From Pseudobutyrivibrio sp. (lineage in GTDB: Bacteria; Bacillota; Clostridia; Lachnospirales; Lachnospiraceae): a DNA stretch of 46,461 bases. The notes below the pieces were generated by a model, which searched no databases, was not told where the DNA came from, and worked only from the letters and a program-made list of their open reading frames with translations. Location: positions 1-46,461 of the forward strand of contig JAILKL010000101.1 of the NCBI GenBank assembly GCA_024693775.1, written 5' to 3'. The number at the start of each line of letters is the position of its first letter. The first letter of the stretch is position 1. Of the stretch, positions 16,091-24,303 are shown in pieces. The position numbers and the translations under genes are program-made.

Positions 16091-18553
16091 ATGACATATT
16101 TAACATGGTTTTTTCTCGATAATGAAAAAGATATAATCGTAAACTTATACAAGGATTTAGACAGGATGTATTATGTCCTAAAAACTCCAAATCACAGCAC
16201 TGGAAACCTTATCAGAAACCTTTCAAAGACATTTAGTTTGCCACTAGATAAGGACGACAATGACATGCTAATTATCAAGGGCGAGGTACCATGTTTTATA
16301 GACGGAAATAATGAGGAAAGCTATATTTTCAAGCTTGGTGATATAGAAATCGCCAGCATTTATCCTGATGGCACAGTGGAAAGAAAAGCAACGATTCCTG
16401 CCATTGCAAAGACTTTAATGAGTCAGACAAAGGATTTTAAGCTCCCAGTAAAGAAGACTATTTTTAATACCTTCATCAGAAAGGATCTTAAATTTAGAGC
16501 TGATTTACATACACATATGAACGGAAACCTTACGGGAGATATCTTAATTGCCATGGGTATTGCACATCAAATCAGATATCCTCTTTATTATGTAAAAAAG
16601 CTAGAGCTAAAAATGACAGATGAGCAGTGGGAAAAGGTAAATGCCCAGCGAGAAAAGGTTGCAAAGCAGTTTGTCTCATCTGGATTGCAGGGAAAATACT
16701 TAGATAGAAGAATCAATGACAACACATTTATCAACTTTGCAGATTTAATATTAAACAACCTGGATAATGCTGAGCAAAATATTGTAAAAATCAGGGGTTC
16801 TCTTGCAGTTATAAAGGACGGACAGGCTGTGTTTACAAACCTTGAAAAGGTATATCTATATCGCTATGTTTTTTGTAAGGCAAAGGAAAGCGAAGAAAAA
16901 ATAGACCTTTATAAAATAGATATGATTCCAGATGAGGATGTAAAAGCAGCTTTGAAGCAAATGCTTAGAGATAAGGAAAATCCTGCTTATGCACATAACA
17001 CCATTTTCCAGGACAAGCTATTGTGGATAGCGCGTAGCTATAAGCGCCAGGGTGTGGAATACGCAGAAATCAGCGACACCACCTTGGTAAAAAAATACGA
17101 GTCACTGGAAATGCTCCGTCAGGTTCACGAGGTAATGCCTAGCATCTACAACGAAACAGGAGTAATGATTAGATTTCTAGCTGCTATGCGTAGAATTCCG
17201 CTTACAATCGTAAAGGACGCTGTTACTCCAGCAAACTATCTAGAGCAGAATCTAGAGGTGTTAAAGGCAACAGCACTTGATCCATATGTAGCTGGGTGCG
17301 ATTTTGTCGGTGAGGAGATAAACGACATAATTACCTTAAAGCCTGCATTCAAGGAAATCGTTAAGATTGCTAAGGCTGACCCTACTTTTGTTATACGTGT
17401 ACATGCTGGAGAAAACGACAGTCAAAAAGACAATATTGCACATTCGATTGCCTGCGTTAAGGAGTCTTTAGAGCCAGGACAGGCAATGCCAAAAATGAGA
17501 TTAGGCCATGGACTTTATACCTATAGCCCTAGCTCAAAAAAGGGCCAAGAAACCCTAAAGTCATTAAAGGAAAACAATGTAGTTTTAGAGTTCCAAATCA
17601 CTAGCAATGTACGATTAAATAATTTAAACACACTGGAAAATCACCCATTAAAGCAGTATTTAAAGCAGGGAATTGCATGTGTACAAGGTACTGATGGTGC
17701 CGCACTTTATGGTACAAGTTCTATTGATGAGCAGTTATCACTTGAAAAAATGCTGGGACTTACAGATGCCGAATTACAGCAAATGCGAGAGGCAGAAGAA
17801 AAGATAATTAGAGAGAGTAGAAAGGCATATTCTACAAAAAAGGCTGCATTCATGAAGCTTTTAGGGGACAAGGATATGGAGGATGTTCTCTTAGAAAAGA
17901 TGCAGGAAGTAAAGATTTCCGGTGGAAATAGCGCTCATAGTGCAAAGCTGGATGCAAATACAGAGCTAAAAGAGCAGATAGAAGATATTACCTGGGATAG
18001 ACTTCCTGTTGTTCTTTTGGGAGGCAGCTTTAACACAGAGAATAGAACAACAAAAATAAGTGAAAATGCCACAAAGCAAATTGATGAGTTGTTAGATTAC
18101 TTAAACCCTGAAGAGGTTTGCTTTGTAATAGGACACAAGCTTTCAGGATACGAAAAATACCTTTTAGAAAATAATACAAAGGGCTTTAGAATATATTCCT
18201 TTGTGCCAGCCCTTATTACCAAAAAGGAGGCTGAAAAGCTAAAGAAATCAGAGGTCAAAATACGAGTTTCCACAGAGACAGAGGGAATGGGAATATACAA
18301 GAGCGTCAATTACGAAATTTTCGAAAGACGTCCATCTGTTGTGGTGGCTTTTGATGGAAATTCGGCAGCGGCAAACCTTATCCAGGAGGCCAAAAACGGC
18401 AAAGGAAAATCAAAGATATTCGTATGGAATCACTCTAAAAACCTAATGCAAAAGGCCCAGTCACTACATGGATATGTACATTCCTTTGGTGATGAAACAT
18501 CCATAAGTGAGATGCTTCAAAGCTTTTATTCTGATCTAAATAAAAAGAATTAA
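16091..18553 (+). CDS. Adenosine deaminase-like protein fused to a C-terminal SLOG-like domain
   Basis: The 820-residue protein has three parts. Residues 1-125 form a domain I do not recognise. Residues 136-590 look like the adenosine/AMP deaminase barrel: H140-T-H142 for metal, H438-A-G-E441, H473 in LGHG, and D535 in GTDG. The Asp that normally follows the last metal ligand (D-D in adenosine and AMP deaminases) is Gly here (G536), so substrate binding should differ. About 150 residues are inserted between the HxH strand and the next conserved segment. Residues 637-800 resemble a SLOG/LOG nucleotide-binding fold: LPVVLLGGSFN, then VIGHKLSGYEKYL, then RPSVVVAFDGNSAAANLIQEA. No signal peptide is seen. 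It is paired with the membrane protein 18 bases downstream. Deaminase activity is an inference. Confidence 0.75.
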   Translation: MTYLTWFFLDNEKDIIVNLYKDLDRMYYVLKTPNHSTGNLIRNLSKTFSLPLDKDDNDMLIIKGEVPCFIDGNNEESYIFKLGDIEIASIYPDGTVERKATIPAIAKTLMSQTKDFKLPVKKTIFNTFIRKDLKFRADLHTHMNGNLTGDILIAMGIAHQIRYPLYYVKKLELKMTDEQWEKVNAQREKVAKQFVSSGLQGKYLDRRINDNTFINFADLILNNLDNAEQNIVKIRGSLAVIKDGQAVFTNLEKVYLYRYVFCKAKESEEKIDLYKIDMIPDEDVKAALKQMLRDKENPAYAHNTIFQDKLLWIARSYKRQGVEYAEISDTTLVKKYESLEMLRQVHEVMPSIYNETGVMIRFLAAMRRIPLTIVKDAVTPANYLEQNLEVLKATALDPYVAGCDFVGEEINDIITLKPAFKEIVKIAKADPTFVIRVHAGENDSQKDNIAHSIACVKESLEPGQAMPKMRLGHGLYTYSPSSKKGQETLKSLKENNVVLEFQITSNVRLNNLNTLENHPLKQYLKQGIACVQGTDGAALYGTSSIDEQLSLEKMLGLTDAELQQMREAEEKIIRESRKAYSTKKAAFMKLLGDKDMEDVLLEKMQEVKISGGNSAHSAKLDANTELKEQIEDITWDRLPVVLLGGSFNTENRTTKISENATKQIDELLDYLNPEEVCFVIGHKLSGYEKYLLENNTKGFRIYSFVPALITKKEAEKLKKSEVKIRVSTETEGMGIYKSVNYEIFERRPSVVVAFDGNSAAANLIQEAKNGKGKSKIFVWNHSKNLMQKAQSLHGYVHSFGDETSISEMLQSFYSDLNKKN

Positions 18554-18571
18554 TAAAAGGAAAGGGCGAAA

Positions 18572-19861
18572 ATGTTAGAAGAAAAAATGTTTAAAATAGG
18601 CGAGTTTAATATCGATAGCTATAAGCCTGAAAGTAAGGGAGTTAGGCTAGCAAAGGACATAATGCTGTGGTCTAACATCATATTGTTATATGGTGCGGCC
18701 ATGTTGTTTTTGTTTATATTCTGGACCTGGAAGACGACCTACCTTTTCCAAATACCACTATGCAAGGATACAGGGGTAATATATATAGCATTAGCTATCA
18801 TGGTTTTCGTCATGGGAATATGGTTTGCAGCTAGAAGTGCCATAATTAGAAAAGCCAAAAAGCTTCCTACAGAGGAGAGATTTGACTACAATCTTTATCT
18901 ACTTCATAAAATGTATGCTAGAAGAAAAAGACTTAAGAATCTAAATCTTATTATCCTAGCCAAATGCCTTGCAACAATGGGAAATAAGGAGTTATGCAAG
19001 CAGGCCTTAGATGAGGTATCACCGGATTATAGGTCAAAGGATTTGGATGAGCTAAGAGCCTGGACTACTGTAGAAAACTACGTATTAGACGAATCTGTTC
19101 TTACTCCAGCAAAGGTAATCCATCCAATAAGAATACTTTTTATATTTTGGATAATAGCCTACGGATTTTTATATGATAGCATCGCCTTTTATGACGGCAT
19201 CGAATATATTTTTAATTCCAGATTTGCAGTGGCAGTGTGTGCATATATCAGTGTTTTCTCATGTACATTGTTTGCTACATTAGTATTTAGCATATGCTTG
19301 AATCTTTTTAATAAACGCTTTAATGGAGGCAAAAAGACCACAAAGCTACAAAAGATAGTGCTAATAATACTTGTTGGTATTATTGCCTTGTATTGGATGA
19401 TTCAAAGAAGTGACGCTATAGAATATGGACTAGGAAAAGATAATTATTATTATGAGGATTATTCTTATGATAATGACGACTACTATGACTACTCAGAGGA
19501 TTATACCTACGCGGAAGAGCCTGCAGTGGAGGACATTGATATTATGAACGAGATGATTGTCCTCTGTAATTATTTGAAAAATGATGGAATTATTCCTGAT
19601 TTTAGTGTAAAGCTGGACTATTCGGCCAAGGGCAATGTAAAGGGCACAGTGGCTCAGGATGATGATTACATCTACGTTCTTTATGACAATGGCATAAAGG
19701 AAGATGATATTGGTAATGAATGCATAGAGCTGGTTCTAGAGGCAGAGCCATTGGATGAAAATGGCAATTCTTTGGGCCAAACAGAGGCAAAATTAAAGGG
19801 ATTTTACCTGGTAAATCTGGAAACAGACGAGGTAATTGACGAGCATAAAACAAGCTGGTAA
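18572..19861 (+). CDS. Five-helix membrane protein of unknown family, partner of the ADA-SLOG protein
   Basis: I do not recognise a family. Five hydrophobic helices can be placed near residues 31-52, 68-90, 187-205, 217-245 and 262-282. Between helices 2 and 3 is a basic, helical loop of about 95 residues (LLHKMYARRKRLKNLNLIILAK) that looks TPR-like and by the positive-inside rule is cytoplasmic. After helix 5 comes a tail of about 145 residues, predicted outside, which begins with a stretch very rich in Tyr and Asp (about 295-320) and ends in a small mixed domain (SVKLDYSAKGNVKGTV...). It starts 18 bases after the preceding stop with AAGGAAAGGG, so the two genes form an operon. It could anchor or sense for the deaminase-like protein; this is inference. 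Confidence 0.75.
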   Translation: MLEEKMFKIGEFNIDSYKPESKGVRLAKDIMLWSNIILLYGAAMLFLFIFWTWKTTYLFQIPLCKDTGVIYIALAIMVFVMGIWFAARSAIIRKAKKLPTEERFDYNLYLLHKMYARRKRLKNLNLIILAKCLATMGNKELCKQALDEVSPDYRSKDLDELRAWTTVENYVLDESVLTPAKVIHPIRILFIFWIIAYGFLYDSIAFYDGIEYIFNSRFAVAVCAYISVFSCTLFATLVFSICLNLFNKRFNGGKKTTKLQKIVLIILVGIIALYWMIQRSDAIEYGLGKDNYYYEDYSYDNDDYYDYSEDYTYAEEPAVEDIDIMNEMIVLCNYLKNDGIIPDFSVKLDYSAKGNVKGTVAQDDDYIYVLYDNGIKEDDIGNECIELVLEAEPLDENGNSLGQTEAKLKGFYLVNLETDEVIDEHKTSW

Positions 19862-21410: not shown

Positions 21411-21833
21411 ATGTATTATTTAACTGCAGAAGCAGCATTTGATGGAGCACATTTTCTATCAGGCTATGAGGGTAAATGCTCAAATTTGCACGGCCATAGA
21501 TGGAGAGTAGTTTTAAAAATAAAGGCTGAGGACCTACAAAAGGAAGGTCAGCAGCGTGGAATGGTTGTGGATTTCGGTGATGTAAAAAAGGCCCTAAAGA
21601 CAGAGACAGATTATTTTGATCACAGCTTTGTATATGAAAAGGACACCTTGAAGGAAAAAACTATTGAAGCCTTAGAGGAAGAAGGTTTCTTAATGAGAAC
21701 TGTAGATTTTAGACCTACAGCTGAGAATTTTTCAAAGTATTTTTATGAAAAGTTTGCAGGCTATGGATTTCAGGTAGCAGAGGTTACTGTTTATGAAACA
21801 CCAAATAATTGCGCAAGCTATAGCAAGGAGTAA
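21411..21833 (+). CDS. queD: 6-carboxytetrahydropterin synthase QueD
   Basis: QueD converts dihydroneopterin triphosphate to 6-carboxy-5,6,7,8-tetrahydropterin, the second step to queuosine. The zinc ligands H14, H27 and H29 (NLHGHRW) and catalytic C23 are present, as is the late VTVYETPNNCASY segment with its conserved Glu. The length is 140 residues. AGGAGG lies seven bases before the ATG and is the site that the leader RNA may cover. It is the first gene of queD-queE-folE-queC-queF. Confidence 0.95.
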   Translation: MYYLTAEAAFDGAHFLSGYEGKCSNLHGHRWRVVLKIKAEDLQKEGQQRGMVVDFGDVKKALKTETDYFDHSFVYEKDTLKEKTIEALEEEGFLMRTVDFRPTAENFSKYFYEKFAGYGFQVAEVTVYETPNNCASYSKE

Positions 21834-21835
21834 TC

Positions 21836-22504
21836 ATGGCAGTATTTAATGTGGTAGAAAAATTCGTAAGTATCAACGGAGAGGGCCAGCACGCAGGAGA
21901 ATTGGCAGTGTTTATCAGACTTAGAGGCTGCAATCTCAGCTGCAGTTATTGTGATACCAGATGGGCCTGCACCAGTGATGCTGATGCAACGCAAATGACA
22001 GAGAAAGAAATAGTGGATTATGTTAAGTCTACTGGTGTTCGTAGAGTTACCCTCACAGGTGGCGAGCCATTAATGGCAGAGAACATCAAGCTTCTTTTAG
22101 TGGAGTTTGCAAAAAACAGGGATATTTTTGTAGAGATAGAGACTAACGGCAGCATGCCTATAAAGGAGTATACATCAATTGGTAATGCACCAGCCTTTAC
22201 CCTTGATTACAAGCTGGCAGGCTCTGGCATGGAGGATAAGATGCTAGTGGAAAACTTTAAATATCTAGAACCAAAGGATACGGTAAAGTTTGTGTGCTCT
22301 AGTGTTTCAGAGCTGGATAAGGTCTGTGAAGTAGTTGATACCTATAGACTTTCAGACAGATGCACAGTTTTAATTAGCCCTGTATTTGGACGTATTGAGC
22401 CATCAGACATGGTGGATTATTTAATAGATAAAAAACGAAATGACATTCGTCTACAGCTACAGCTTCATAAATTTATTTGGGATCCAGATAAGCGCGGAGT
22501 GTAG
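21836..22504 (+). CDS. queE: 7-carboxy-7-deazaguanine synthase QueE
   Basis: QueE is a radical SAM enzyme that contracts the pterin ring to make 7-carboxy-7-deazaguanine. It has the cluster motif C32-x3-C36-x2-C39 in [16 protein letters not shown], preceded by [17 protein letters not shown], and TLTGGEPL for SAM binding. The length is 222 residues. It starts two bases after queD. Confidence 0.94.
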
Positions 22505-22518
22505 GGAAAGGAGTAGAT

Positions 22519-23091
22519 ATGGCAATAGATTCAGAGAGAATAAAAAAGAGTATCCGAGAGATTCTAATAGCCCTAGGGGATGACCCGGATAGGGAAGGTC
22601 TAAAGGACACGCCAGATAGGGTGGCCCGCATGTATCAGGAAGTATTTGAAGGTATGAATTACACCAACGCAGAAATTGCAGAGATGTTTAATAAAACCTT
22701 TGAAGAGGACTATTACGAAGAGGGCAATCAGGACCTGGTATATGTAAAGGATATTGAGGTGTTCAGCTATTGTGAGCATCATTTAGCCTTAATGTATGAC
22801 ATGAAGGTAAGCGTGGCATATATTCCAAACGGTAAGGTAATTGGCCTGAGCAAAATAGCCCGTATTGCAGATATGGCAGCCAAGAGATTGCAGCTACAGG
22901 AGAGAATCGGCAGCGATATTGCAGAGATAATTCAAATGGTTACTGGCTCAGATGATGTGGCTGTATTCATAGAGGCTAGCCATTCCTGCATGACAGCCAG
23001 AGGCATTAGAAATGCCAGTGCCAAAACCCACACAGAGACCCTTAGAGGCAGATTTAAAACAGATAGCAATTTACTACAAAGATTAAGATAG
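22519..23091 (+). CDS. folE: GTP cyclohydrolase I
   Basis: FolE opens GTP to make dihydroneopterin triphosphate, the first step of both folate and queuosine synthesis. [11 protein letters not shown] supplies zinc Cys and catalytic His residues; [14 protein letters not shown] and CMTARGI complete the active site. The length is 190 residues. Its position within the que genes suggests it feeds the queuosine branch, with the folate supply possibly shared. Confidence 0.95.
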
Positions 23092-23100
23092 AGGTGACAT

Positions 23101-23787
23101 ATGAAAGCATTAGTATTAATCAGTGGCGGAATCGACAGCACCACATGCCTAGCAATGGCAGTAAAAGAATACGGTAGCGAAAACGTTATCGGTTTATCAA
23201 TATTCTATGGTCAAAGACACAAGAAAGAAATCGAAGCAGCCGATGCAGTTTGTGACTACTACAAGGTAGAGCACATTACACTGGATTTATCTACAATGTT
23301 TAAATTTAGTGATTGCACACTTTTAGAGCATTCTGATGGAGAGATTCCTGAGGAGGAATATGCAGACCAGCTTAAAAAGACAAATGGCAAGCCAGTAAGC
23401 ACTTATGTGCCATTTAGAAACGGACTATTTCTTTCAAGCGCTAGCGCTATTGCACTTTCAAAGGGCTGCTCAAAGATTTACTACGGAGCACACGCTGATG
23501 ACGCCGCAGGAAATGCGTACCCAGATTGCTCTGAGGCCTTCAATACAGCCATGAATACAGCTATTTATGAAGGTAGCGGACAGCAGCTAAAGATTGAGGC
23601 TCCATTCATTAGCCTAAACAAGGCAGGAGTAGTAAAGAAGGGATTGGAGCTAAAGGTTCCATATGAGCTCACCTGGAGCTGCTATGAGGGACATGAAAAG
23701 GCTTGTGGAAAATGTGGTACCTGCCGTGATAGACAGGCAGCATTTATCGCCAATGGTACAACAGACCCAATTCAGTATGAGGCTTAA
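23101..23787 (+). CDS. queC: 7-cyano-7-deazaguanine synthase QueC
   Basis: QueC turns the 7-carboxyl group into a nitrile using ATP and ammonia, giving preQ0. The PP-loop SGGIDSTT (8-15) binds ATP. The zinc site is C194, C202, C205 and C208 in the CYEGHEKACGKCGTC segment. The length is 228 residues. GAGGTGACAT leads directly into the ATG. Confidence 0.96.
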   Translation: MKALVLISGGIDSTTCLAMAVKEYGSENVIGLSIFYGQRHKKEIEAADAVCDYYKVEHITLDLSTMFKFSDCTLLEHSDGEIPEEEYADQLKKTNGKPVSTYVPFRNGLFLSSASAIALSKGCSKIYYGAHADDAAGNAYPDCSEAFNTAMNTAIYEGSGQQLKIEAPFISLNKAGVVKKGLELKVPYELTWSCYEGHEKACGKCGTCRDRQAAFIANGTTDPIQYEA

Positions 23788-23811
23788 AGATAATTAATTT
23801 AGGAGGCAAAT

Positions 23812-24303
23812 ATGTCAGATAGAAAAGACGAGGGAACAATTACCCTTTTAGGAAACCAGAACAATAAATACCCAGATAACTACGCACCAGAGATGCTTCA
23901 GACATTTATCAACAAGCATCCTGACAATGATTATTTTGTAAAATTCAACTGTCCAGAGTTTACATCACTCTGTCCAATTACAGGTCAGCCAGATTTTGCT
24001 AACATCATTATTTCCTATGTTCCAGGCGAAAAGATGGTGGAGAGCAAATCCCTAAAGCTATATCTATTTAGTTTTAGAAATCACGGTGATTTCCACGAGG
24101 ATTGTGTAAACATCATTATGAAGGATCTTATCAAGCTCATGGACCCAAAATACATTGAGGTGTGGGGCAAATTCACTCCAAGAGGAGGCATTTCAATAGA
24201 CCCATATTGCAACTATGGAAAGCCAGGTACAAAGTGGGAGGAGATTGCTTTTAATCGTATGGCAAACCACGATATGTATCCAGAAAGAGTAGATAATAGA
24301 TAG
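23812..24303 (+). CDS. queF: NADPH-dependent 7-cyano-7-deazaguanine reductase QueF
   Basis: QueF reduces the preQ0 nitrile to preQ1. [14 protein letters not shown] holds the catalytic C54, which forms a thioimide with the substrate, and D61. The QueF motif with E77 ([16 protein letters not shown]) and FHED complete the family pattern. At 163 residues it is the short, unimodular YkvM type of Firmicutes. It follows AGGAGGC. With it, the operon encodes the full route from GTP to preQ1. Confidence 0.95.

Follow-up and report, generated by a model that had tools for sequence, protein, structure and literature searches.

The DNA analyzed here, referred to as the window, is a stretch of 46,461 nucleotides from Pseudobutyrivibrio sp. 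(contig JAILKL010000101.1 of assembly GCA_024693775.1; the assembly totals 2,341,581 bases, is 82% complete and has the window on its contig 81). Its + strand contains, at positions 16091-18553, a real open reading frame (ORF) with an ATG start that encodes an 820-amino-acid protein related to adenosine deaminase (ADA). This enzyme is conserved, and its domains are arranged in a new way. The metal and catalytic residues of ADA are retained, two residues of the canonical substrate pocket (D19 and D296 in mouse ADA numbering) are lost, extra domains are present on the same chain, and the gene stands singly. From its sequence the protein appears to be a nucleotide deaminase of gut and rumen bacteria that is complete in itself. 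We tentatively favor a soluble, stand-alone, metal-dependent enzyme that would deaminate a 5'-phosphorylated adenine nucleotide, would be regulated by a nucleotide-type ligand at its C-terminal domain and would act in purine nucleotide balance. The original prediction, made from the letters of the window, had proposed a two-gene unit in which a fusion of an ADA-like barrel with a SLOG-like domain was coupled to a membrane protein encoded just downstream. The parts of the gene discussed below are as follows.

16091-18553, + strand: ADA-like/C-terminal alpha/beta fusion of 820 amino acids, the whole functional unit
16091-16495, + strand: N-terminal domain, residues 1-135, strand-rich in the model and of no known family
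16508-16525, + strand: HTHMNG, residues 140-145, the metal-binding HxH, with N144 at the position of mouse ADA D19
16535-16990, + strand: helical stretch, residues about 149-300, predicted from the H142-H438 spacing and the model helices to hold the roughly 110 residues inserted between HxH and HAGE; boundaries approximate
17402-17413, + strand: HAGE, residues 438-441, metal His and catalytic Glu
17504-17512, + strand: GHG, residues 472-474, with the catalytic His 473
17693-17698, + strand: D535-G536, metal Asp retained and Gly at the position of mouse ADA D296
17996-18550, + strand: C-terminal alpha/beta domain, residues about 636-820, SLOG-like in the order of its elements only

Judged by its sequence, the protein is a true member of the ADA superfamily. 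The Pfam A_deaminase model (PF00962) matched it with an E value of 2.8e-17 and 63.3 bits against a cutoff of 27, and this was the sole Pfam match at E values of up to 10; Pfam also contains an AMP deaminase model, which gave no match. In TIGR01430, the NCBIfam model for canonical ADA (aden_deam), the score was 54.1 bits, below the equivalog cutoff of 216.55. Among 84,980 species genomes scanned for homologs, 544 stretches encoded a relative, and the best 80 were kept. The resulting alignment had 82 rows drawn from 145 near-complete sequences, with 49-87% identity to the window protein; two of 78 representatives (L133 and L099, one over-long and one with a frame reaching the end of its locus) were omitted from alignment A2, and five were added. 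The full metal and catalytic set of ADA (HxH, H, E, H and D) was present, and H140, H142, H438, E441, H473 and D535 were invariant in all 82 rows, indicating that the active site has been kept by selection. The barrel that had been read from the sequence, with HxH, HAGE, LGHG and a metal Asp in place, was thus borne out.

The substrate pocket differs from that of canonical ADA. According to the Cad1 report (PMC12669630), mouse ADA holds adenosine by its 5' and 3' hydroxyls through the carboxylate of D19. The corresponding position of the family, N144 in the window protein, is Asn in 81 of the 82 homologs and Ser in the remaining one; the Asp was retained in all seven distinct canonical ADAs compared from the same order. 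At the D296 position (G536), Gly was found in 82 of 82. Since D19 is also lost in the ATP deaminases Cad1 and RdrB and is kept by canonical ADAs, its replacement suggests that the substrate may be a phosphorylated compound, namely adenosine mono-, di- or triphosphate (AMP, ADP or ATP) or a deoxy form, rather than free adenosine. The activity would be set by a nucleotide-type ligand held in the C-terminal alpha/beta domain, and the day-to-day job of the enzyme would be to balance purine nucleotides, yielding inosine nucleotides.

A structure model was built from the 82 aligned rows (mean predicted local distance difference test score, 85.5; predicted template modeling score, 0.79) and replaced a first model from 10 sequences that was poor at residues 101-271. 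In this model residues 1-98 are strand-rich, the ADA barrel runs from about residue 137, two long helices exit at 559-603, and residues 638-819 form a separate alpha/beta domain in which seven strands alternate with seven helices. A Foldseek search of the PDB gave Salmonella adenosine deaminase as the best match (E value of 3.2e-10). The best 50 of the 86 matches at an E value of 0.001 or lower were ADA-type barrels, many Cad1 chains being among them and RdrB not being among them; none of these 50 covered the C-terminal domain. With the older model the matches listed were similar, with the addition of a snail AMP deaminase and, lower down, a few unrelated folds. A fold search of viral proteins gave one match at an E value of 0.001 or lower, with a TM score of 0.18, which we regard as meaningless. 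The N-terminal domain (residues 1-135), described earlier as an unknown domain, had no Pfam family near its cutoff, and its best PHROG match (E value of 0.02) was to a family of unknown function.

The distances between the active-site residues locate the added regions. H142 and H438 are 296 residues apart, compared with 174-186 in four canonical ADAs and 377, 397 and 513 in three RdrB-like proteins. The span between the catalytic His and the metal Asp is 62 residues, compared with 57 in the four ADAs and 201-255 in the RdrB-like proteins, and the tail after the metal Asp comprises 285 residues, compared with 52-68 and 60-76, respectively. This spacing indicates that the window protein is filled at RdrB insertion sites 1 and 2 and is without insertion 3.

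Within the C-terminal domain, G644, S646, E688, R725, E729, the YKS at 736-738, D755, G756, N762 and Q765 were each present in 82 of 82 homologs, a pattern that may be expected of a working binding site and that we counted for the favored reading. In the model the domain appears to be of the Rossmann-type alpha/beta class. By eye, its loops sit at the places of the loops of LOG and TIGR00725-like proteins; the GGxGT loop of LOG/SLOG proteins is replaced by an invariant D-G, and the PGGxGTxxE motif of LOG loci is absent, the aligned loop being DGNSAxxNLIQEA. The domain had no Pfam family near a cutoff, no PDB sequence match (best E value of 0.64) and no PHROG match. When it was searched against 199 genomes of the phylum, only the two family members matched clearly, and one further hit had an E value of 0.009. 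Profile comparison with hhalign used five LOG sequences, nine TIGR00725-like sequences and DprA from 22 of 30 loci (the rest failed the motif filter), with 30 unrelated neighbor families as background. The local scores against the three SLOG sets were 11.5-17.4, the background reached 24.1, and at least 9 of the 30 background families scored above the best SLOG set. In global mode the TIGR00725-like set scored 9.25 with only one of the 30 background families higher; the register was wrong, however, pairing the start of one domain with the end of the other. Although the element order fits SLOG, no Rossmann-type match to this domain was found among the best 50 matches of each Foldseek search. 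Two other comparisons were set aside. Toprim_2 was weakly matched by 6 of 17 C-terminal domains (best E value of 0.0071) and was not counted as evidence, and the cpYpsA family (PF12694) was uninformative, as it was found neither in 101 genomes searched nor in control genomes. The structural work upheld one half of what had been foreseen, an ADA barrel followed by a separate alpha/beta domain with a SLOG-compatible element order. For the SLOG half, sequence and profile tests gave no support, and the matches listed by the fold searches held none to this domain. Because element order speaks for SLOG and the profile tests do not, the label is possible and unproven.

The deaminase is near universal in two genera despite occasional transfer. 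Counting the window's own genome, 24 of 29 genomes in the genus had the long gene; a single copy among these 24 (G009:C1:2068919-2071360, L024) is broken by stop codons and inactive, indicating that the gene is dispensable there. A second genus (g68), inferred to be Butyrivibrio, had it in 58 of 79 genomes, or in 39 of the 47 with completeness of 90% or more and contamination of 5% or less. In wider samples it was found in 23 of 397 genomes of the family (19 of 334 genera), in 39 of 392 genomes of the order, 12 of them in a second family (f8), and in 3 of 398 genomes of the phylum, one of these three (L113) being an ordinary frame of 351 residues. In a gene tree made by a quick method, the Lachnospiraceae clade included G088 of family f8. 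The f8 rows were joined by L131, L132 and L025, the last from the same genus as the window; these three placements involve long branches and are less sure. This conflict with taxonomy indicates that the gene has moved between families at times. No member of the family was found in 2.9 million viral contigs searched with two peptide patterns, and phage and plasmid records gave short canonical-ADA-like matches only, with no full-length member.

The gene stands alone. We compared 101 neighborhoods, 98 of them with a complete deaminase ORF and some possibly being one genome under two handles. Upstream neighbors were of 57 kinds in 96 loci and downstream neighbors of 68 kinds in 97 loci; the upstream gene shared the strand of the deaminase in 82 of 96 loci and lay within 50 bases in 45. 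A scan was made of 96 representatives of immediate neighbors of 100-700 amino acids, drawn from the 211 clusters found at positions 1 and 2. Among the 25 of 127 Pfam matches listed, metabolic families predominated (for example enolase, pyruvate kinase, starch synthase and GGDEF), and four PADLOC models were matched at an E value of 1e-15 (mad3 and three PDC-S03, one member each). Neither a conserved operon nor a defense island was found around the deaminase in these neighborhoods and scans. The flanking genes are thus as ordinary as had been stated, and the base use is like that of the neighbors, with GC fractions of 0.378 for the deaminase gene and 0.363 for the membrane protein gene compared with 0.375 for the whole window.

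The gene once taken as its partner lies 18 bases downstream.

18572-19861, + strand: five-helix membrane protein of 429 amino acids (real ORF, ATG start), a neighbor outside the functional unit

The translation has five hydrophobic segments (32-50, 69-87, 182-200, 220-238 and 259-277) and a Tyr/Asp-rich stretch after the fifth, in line with the predicted five helices and tail. No relative of this gene was found in the other 100 neighborhoods (ORF search, E value of 1e-4). The family occurred in 16 of 61 related genomes, all of one genus (the window's and 15 others), as pieces of 29-77% identity; in the 15 other genomes the relatives were on a contig without the deaminase in 12 and on the same contig, at least 140 kb away, in 3. 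The membrane protein is thus probably a chance neighbor. As a side observation, this family (window 18572-19861, L139-L160) has up to three pieces per genome, and the C-terminal part, at 61-77% identity, exceeds the N-terminal part in several. Elsewhere in the window, at 21411-24303, a run of genes resembles a queuosine precursor cluster (putative QueD, QueE, FolE, QueC and QueF). Apart from one tRNA, no RNA regulator reached its gathering score in the window, and none was found in 20 loci of the deaminase family searched with short flanks.

Near universality in two genera, mostly housekeeping neighbors and the features shared with RdrB (N-terminal extension and insertion following HxH) were counted for the favored reading, a nucleotide deaminase under ligand control. 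Several observations weigh against it. No purine-metabolism operon was conserved across the 101 neighborhoods, and a YfbR-like 5'-nucleotidase (one Pfam hit in the pooled scan), found directly upstream on the same strand in L064, L072, L075, L076 and L078, was confined to these five loci of one Butyrivibrio clade. By sequence the protein is closer to canonical ADA (best E value of 6e-12) than to RdrB (0.066). The change of D296 to Gly says little, since this position is Asn in six of the seven canonical ADAs (Asp in the seventh, and Asp in three RdrB-like proteins), and ligand binding by the C-terminal domain is proposed by analogy, as the searches did not assign its fold. Our confidence is limited because both substrate and ligand are inferred. 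An unusual deaminase of adenosine or another nucleoside, working in purine salvage and carrying its added domains as structural elements with no regulatory function, would suit the closest sequence and fold matches, which are ordinary ADAs. Of the 29 genomes in the genus, 4 had a canonical ADA above the TIGR01430 cutoff: 2 of the 5 that lack the long gene and 2 of the 24 that carry it. This is a weak hint of substitution that carries little weight because the numbers are too few and some genomes are incomplete; nine further genomes had an ADA-like protein with a lower score, about 117-129 bits. The near-invariant replacement of D19 and the invariant replacement of D296 nevertheless speak against a nucleoside substrate, and the varied neighbors include no salvage operon, which had been raised as a possible constant setting, so that we consider this explanation unlikely.

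A defense effector resembling Cad1 or RdrB, in which an infection-linked nucleotide signal would bind the C-terminal domain and free a conversion of ATP to inosine triphosphate (ITP) that halts phage growth, shares its superfamily with two known ATP-deaminating effectors, likewise lacks D19 and has a C-terminal alpha/beta domain that could act as CARF does. The CARF_ADA model of PADLOC was matched by eight of nine family members, and the tree indicates movement between families. Defense genes are usually patchy, however, far below the prevalence seen here (24 of 29 and 39 of 47 genomes). At most 4 of the 96 neighbor representatives matched a PADLOC model at an E value of 1e-15 or lower, neither RdrA nor a signal-making gene was a conserved neighbor, and the viral, phage and plasmid searches yielded no member. 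On these grounds a defense role, which had been among those suggested, is improbable. Quite unlikely is a two-step degrader, whose barrel would convert AMP to inosine monophosphate and whose LOG-like C-terminal domain would split the base from ribose 5-phosphate. LOG proteins do split nucleoside monophosphates, and the strand and helix order of the model resembles theirs, but the LOG motif is replaced by DGNSAxxNLIQEA, and the hhalign scores were no better than those of unrelated families. Least credible of all is the membrane-coupled, two-gene nucleotide sensor. The two genes are close together and on one strand in the window; among the 101 neighborhoods this pairing was seen there only, and deaminase homologs occur without the membrane partner, whose relatives lie elsewhere in all 15 other genomes that have them. 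As a general rule, coupling is already contradicted, homologs that always lack the partner having been named at the outset as a finding that would refute it. What endures of the original prediction is the complete metal site of an ADA-like barrel, the added alpha/beta domain joined to it and the class of hypothesis, a purine nucleotide sensor or hydrolase, which is sensible.

A bolder form of the nucleotide deaminase reading may be put forward, which we regard as possible though doubtful. The protein would be a ligand-gated ATP/dATP deaminase that needs no CRISPR or RdrA partner, with barrel and sensor in one chain and in the reverse order relative to Cad1. It would be a standing gene of much of the rumen Butyrivibrio/Pseudobutyrivibrio group and could turn part of the adenine nucleotide pool into inosine nucleotides when cells are stressed or infected; its sensor would represent a new lineage of SLOG/Rossmann nucleotide-binding domains. 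To our knowledge, adenine deaminases acting at the nucleotide level are rare in bacteria. The two best-studied recent ones, RdrB and Cad1, are defense effectors. If a nucleotide-level activity is confirmed, the family would add a third architecture, encoded by a single gene that most members of abundant rumen genera have retained, and ligand-controlled deamination of ATP or AMP would also be a standing part of bacterial physiology. It would provide a soluble, one-chain protein for studying the link from sensor to deaminase without a partner, and annotators should then avoid "adenosine deaminase" as a name for the 820-amino-acid protein.

In the open-access literature, with few preprints or subscription papers covered, we found no account of an ADA barrel that carries a Rossmann or SLOG domain at its C terminus. 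Canonical ADA (Add; PF00962/TIGR01430) shares the barrel and metal site and provides the best sequence and fold matches; it differs in keeping D19, in being defined by a TIGR01430 cutoff that the window protein does not reach and in its length of 320-347 amino acids (four compared), to which the window protein adds three regions. With SLOG, LOG and DprA proteins the C-terminal domain shares, by eye, the alternating order of strands and helices and the glycine-rich or polar loops after strands; it differs in the lack of profile support and in having DGNSA in place of GGxGT.

During the search for canonical ADAs, RADAR-type systems were seen in two Lachnospiraceae genomes (L264:1042-7774, L263:4961-11488 and L262:677-6410), with RdrB-like proteins of 864, 1042 and 909 amino acids, respectively, each adjoined by an ATPase. 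RdrA models matched the ATPase in two of the three loci, that of L262 being unmatched at an E value of 0.001, and a third gene, tetratricopeptide-like in fold by eye, adjoins the ATPase in two of the three.

RdrB of RADAR converts ATP to ITP; it is extended at its N terminus, has an insertion following HxH and builds its shell with insertion 3 (PMC9994260). The window protein resembles it in the N-terminal extension, in the long insertion after HxH and in a size of about 90 kDa; it further resembles three RdrB-like proteins in having no Asp at the D19 position (Phe, Gly and Gly; Asn in the window protein). It differs in lacking the insertion between catalytic His and metal Asp and in having a C-terminal domain, the RdrB tail being 60-76 residues. 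RdrB models gave no match to the window protein at E values of up to 10, nor to any of nine family members at up to 1; they matched the three RdrB-like comparators at 2e-30 to 1e-36. No RdrA model was matched at 1e-15 among the 96 neighbor representatives, and there was no recurrent neighbor of any kind. The other relative is Cad1, the CARF-ADA effector of type III CRISPR, whose conversion of ATP to ITP is activated by cyclic oligoadenylate. No CARF family was found in Pfam scans of the window protein, and no CRISPR context was found in the neighbor scan. TaqCad1 is reported to have Gly at D19 and Asn at D296, and Cad1 to deaminate ATP and not AMP, ADP or N6-methyl-AMP (PMC12669630). Both positions are replaced in the two proteins, with N144 and G536 in the window protein. 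The CARF_ADA model matched the latter with an E value of 2.7e-9, the match starting at position 261 of 605 in the model and at residue 137 of the protein, and Cad1 chains were among the fold matches listed. Both proteins join an ADA barrel to an extra alpha/beta domain, which is N-terminal in Cad1 and C-terminal in the window protein.

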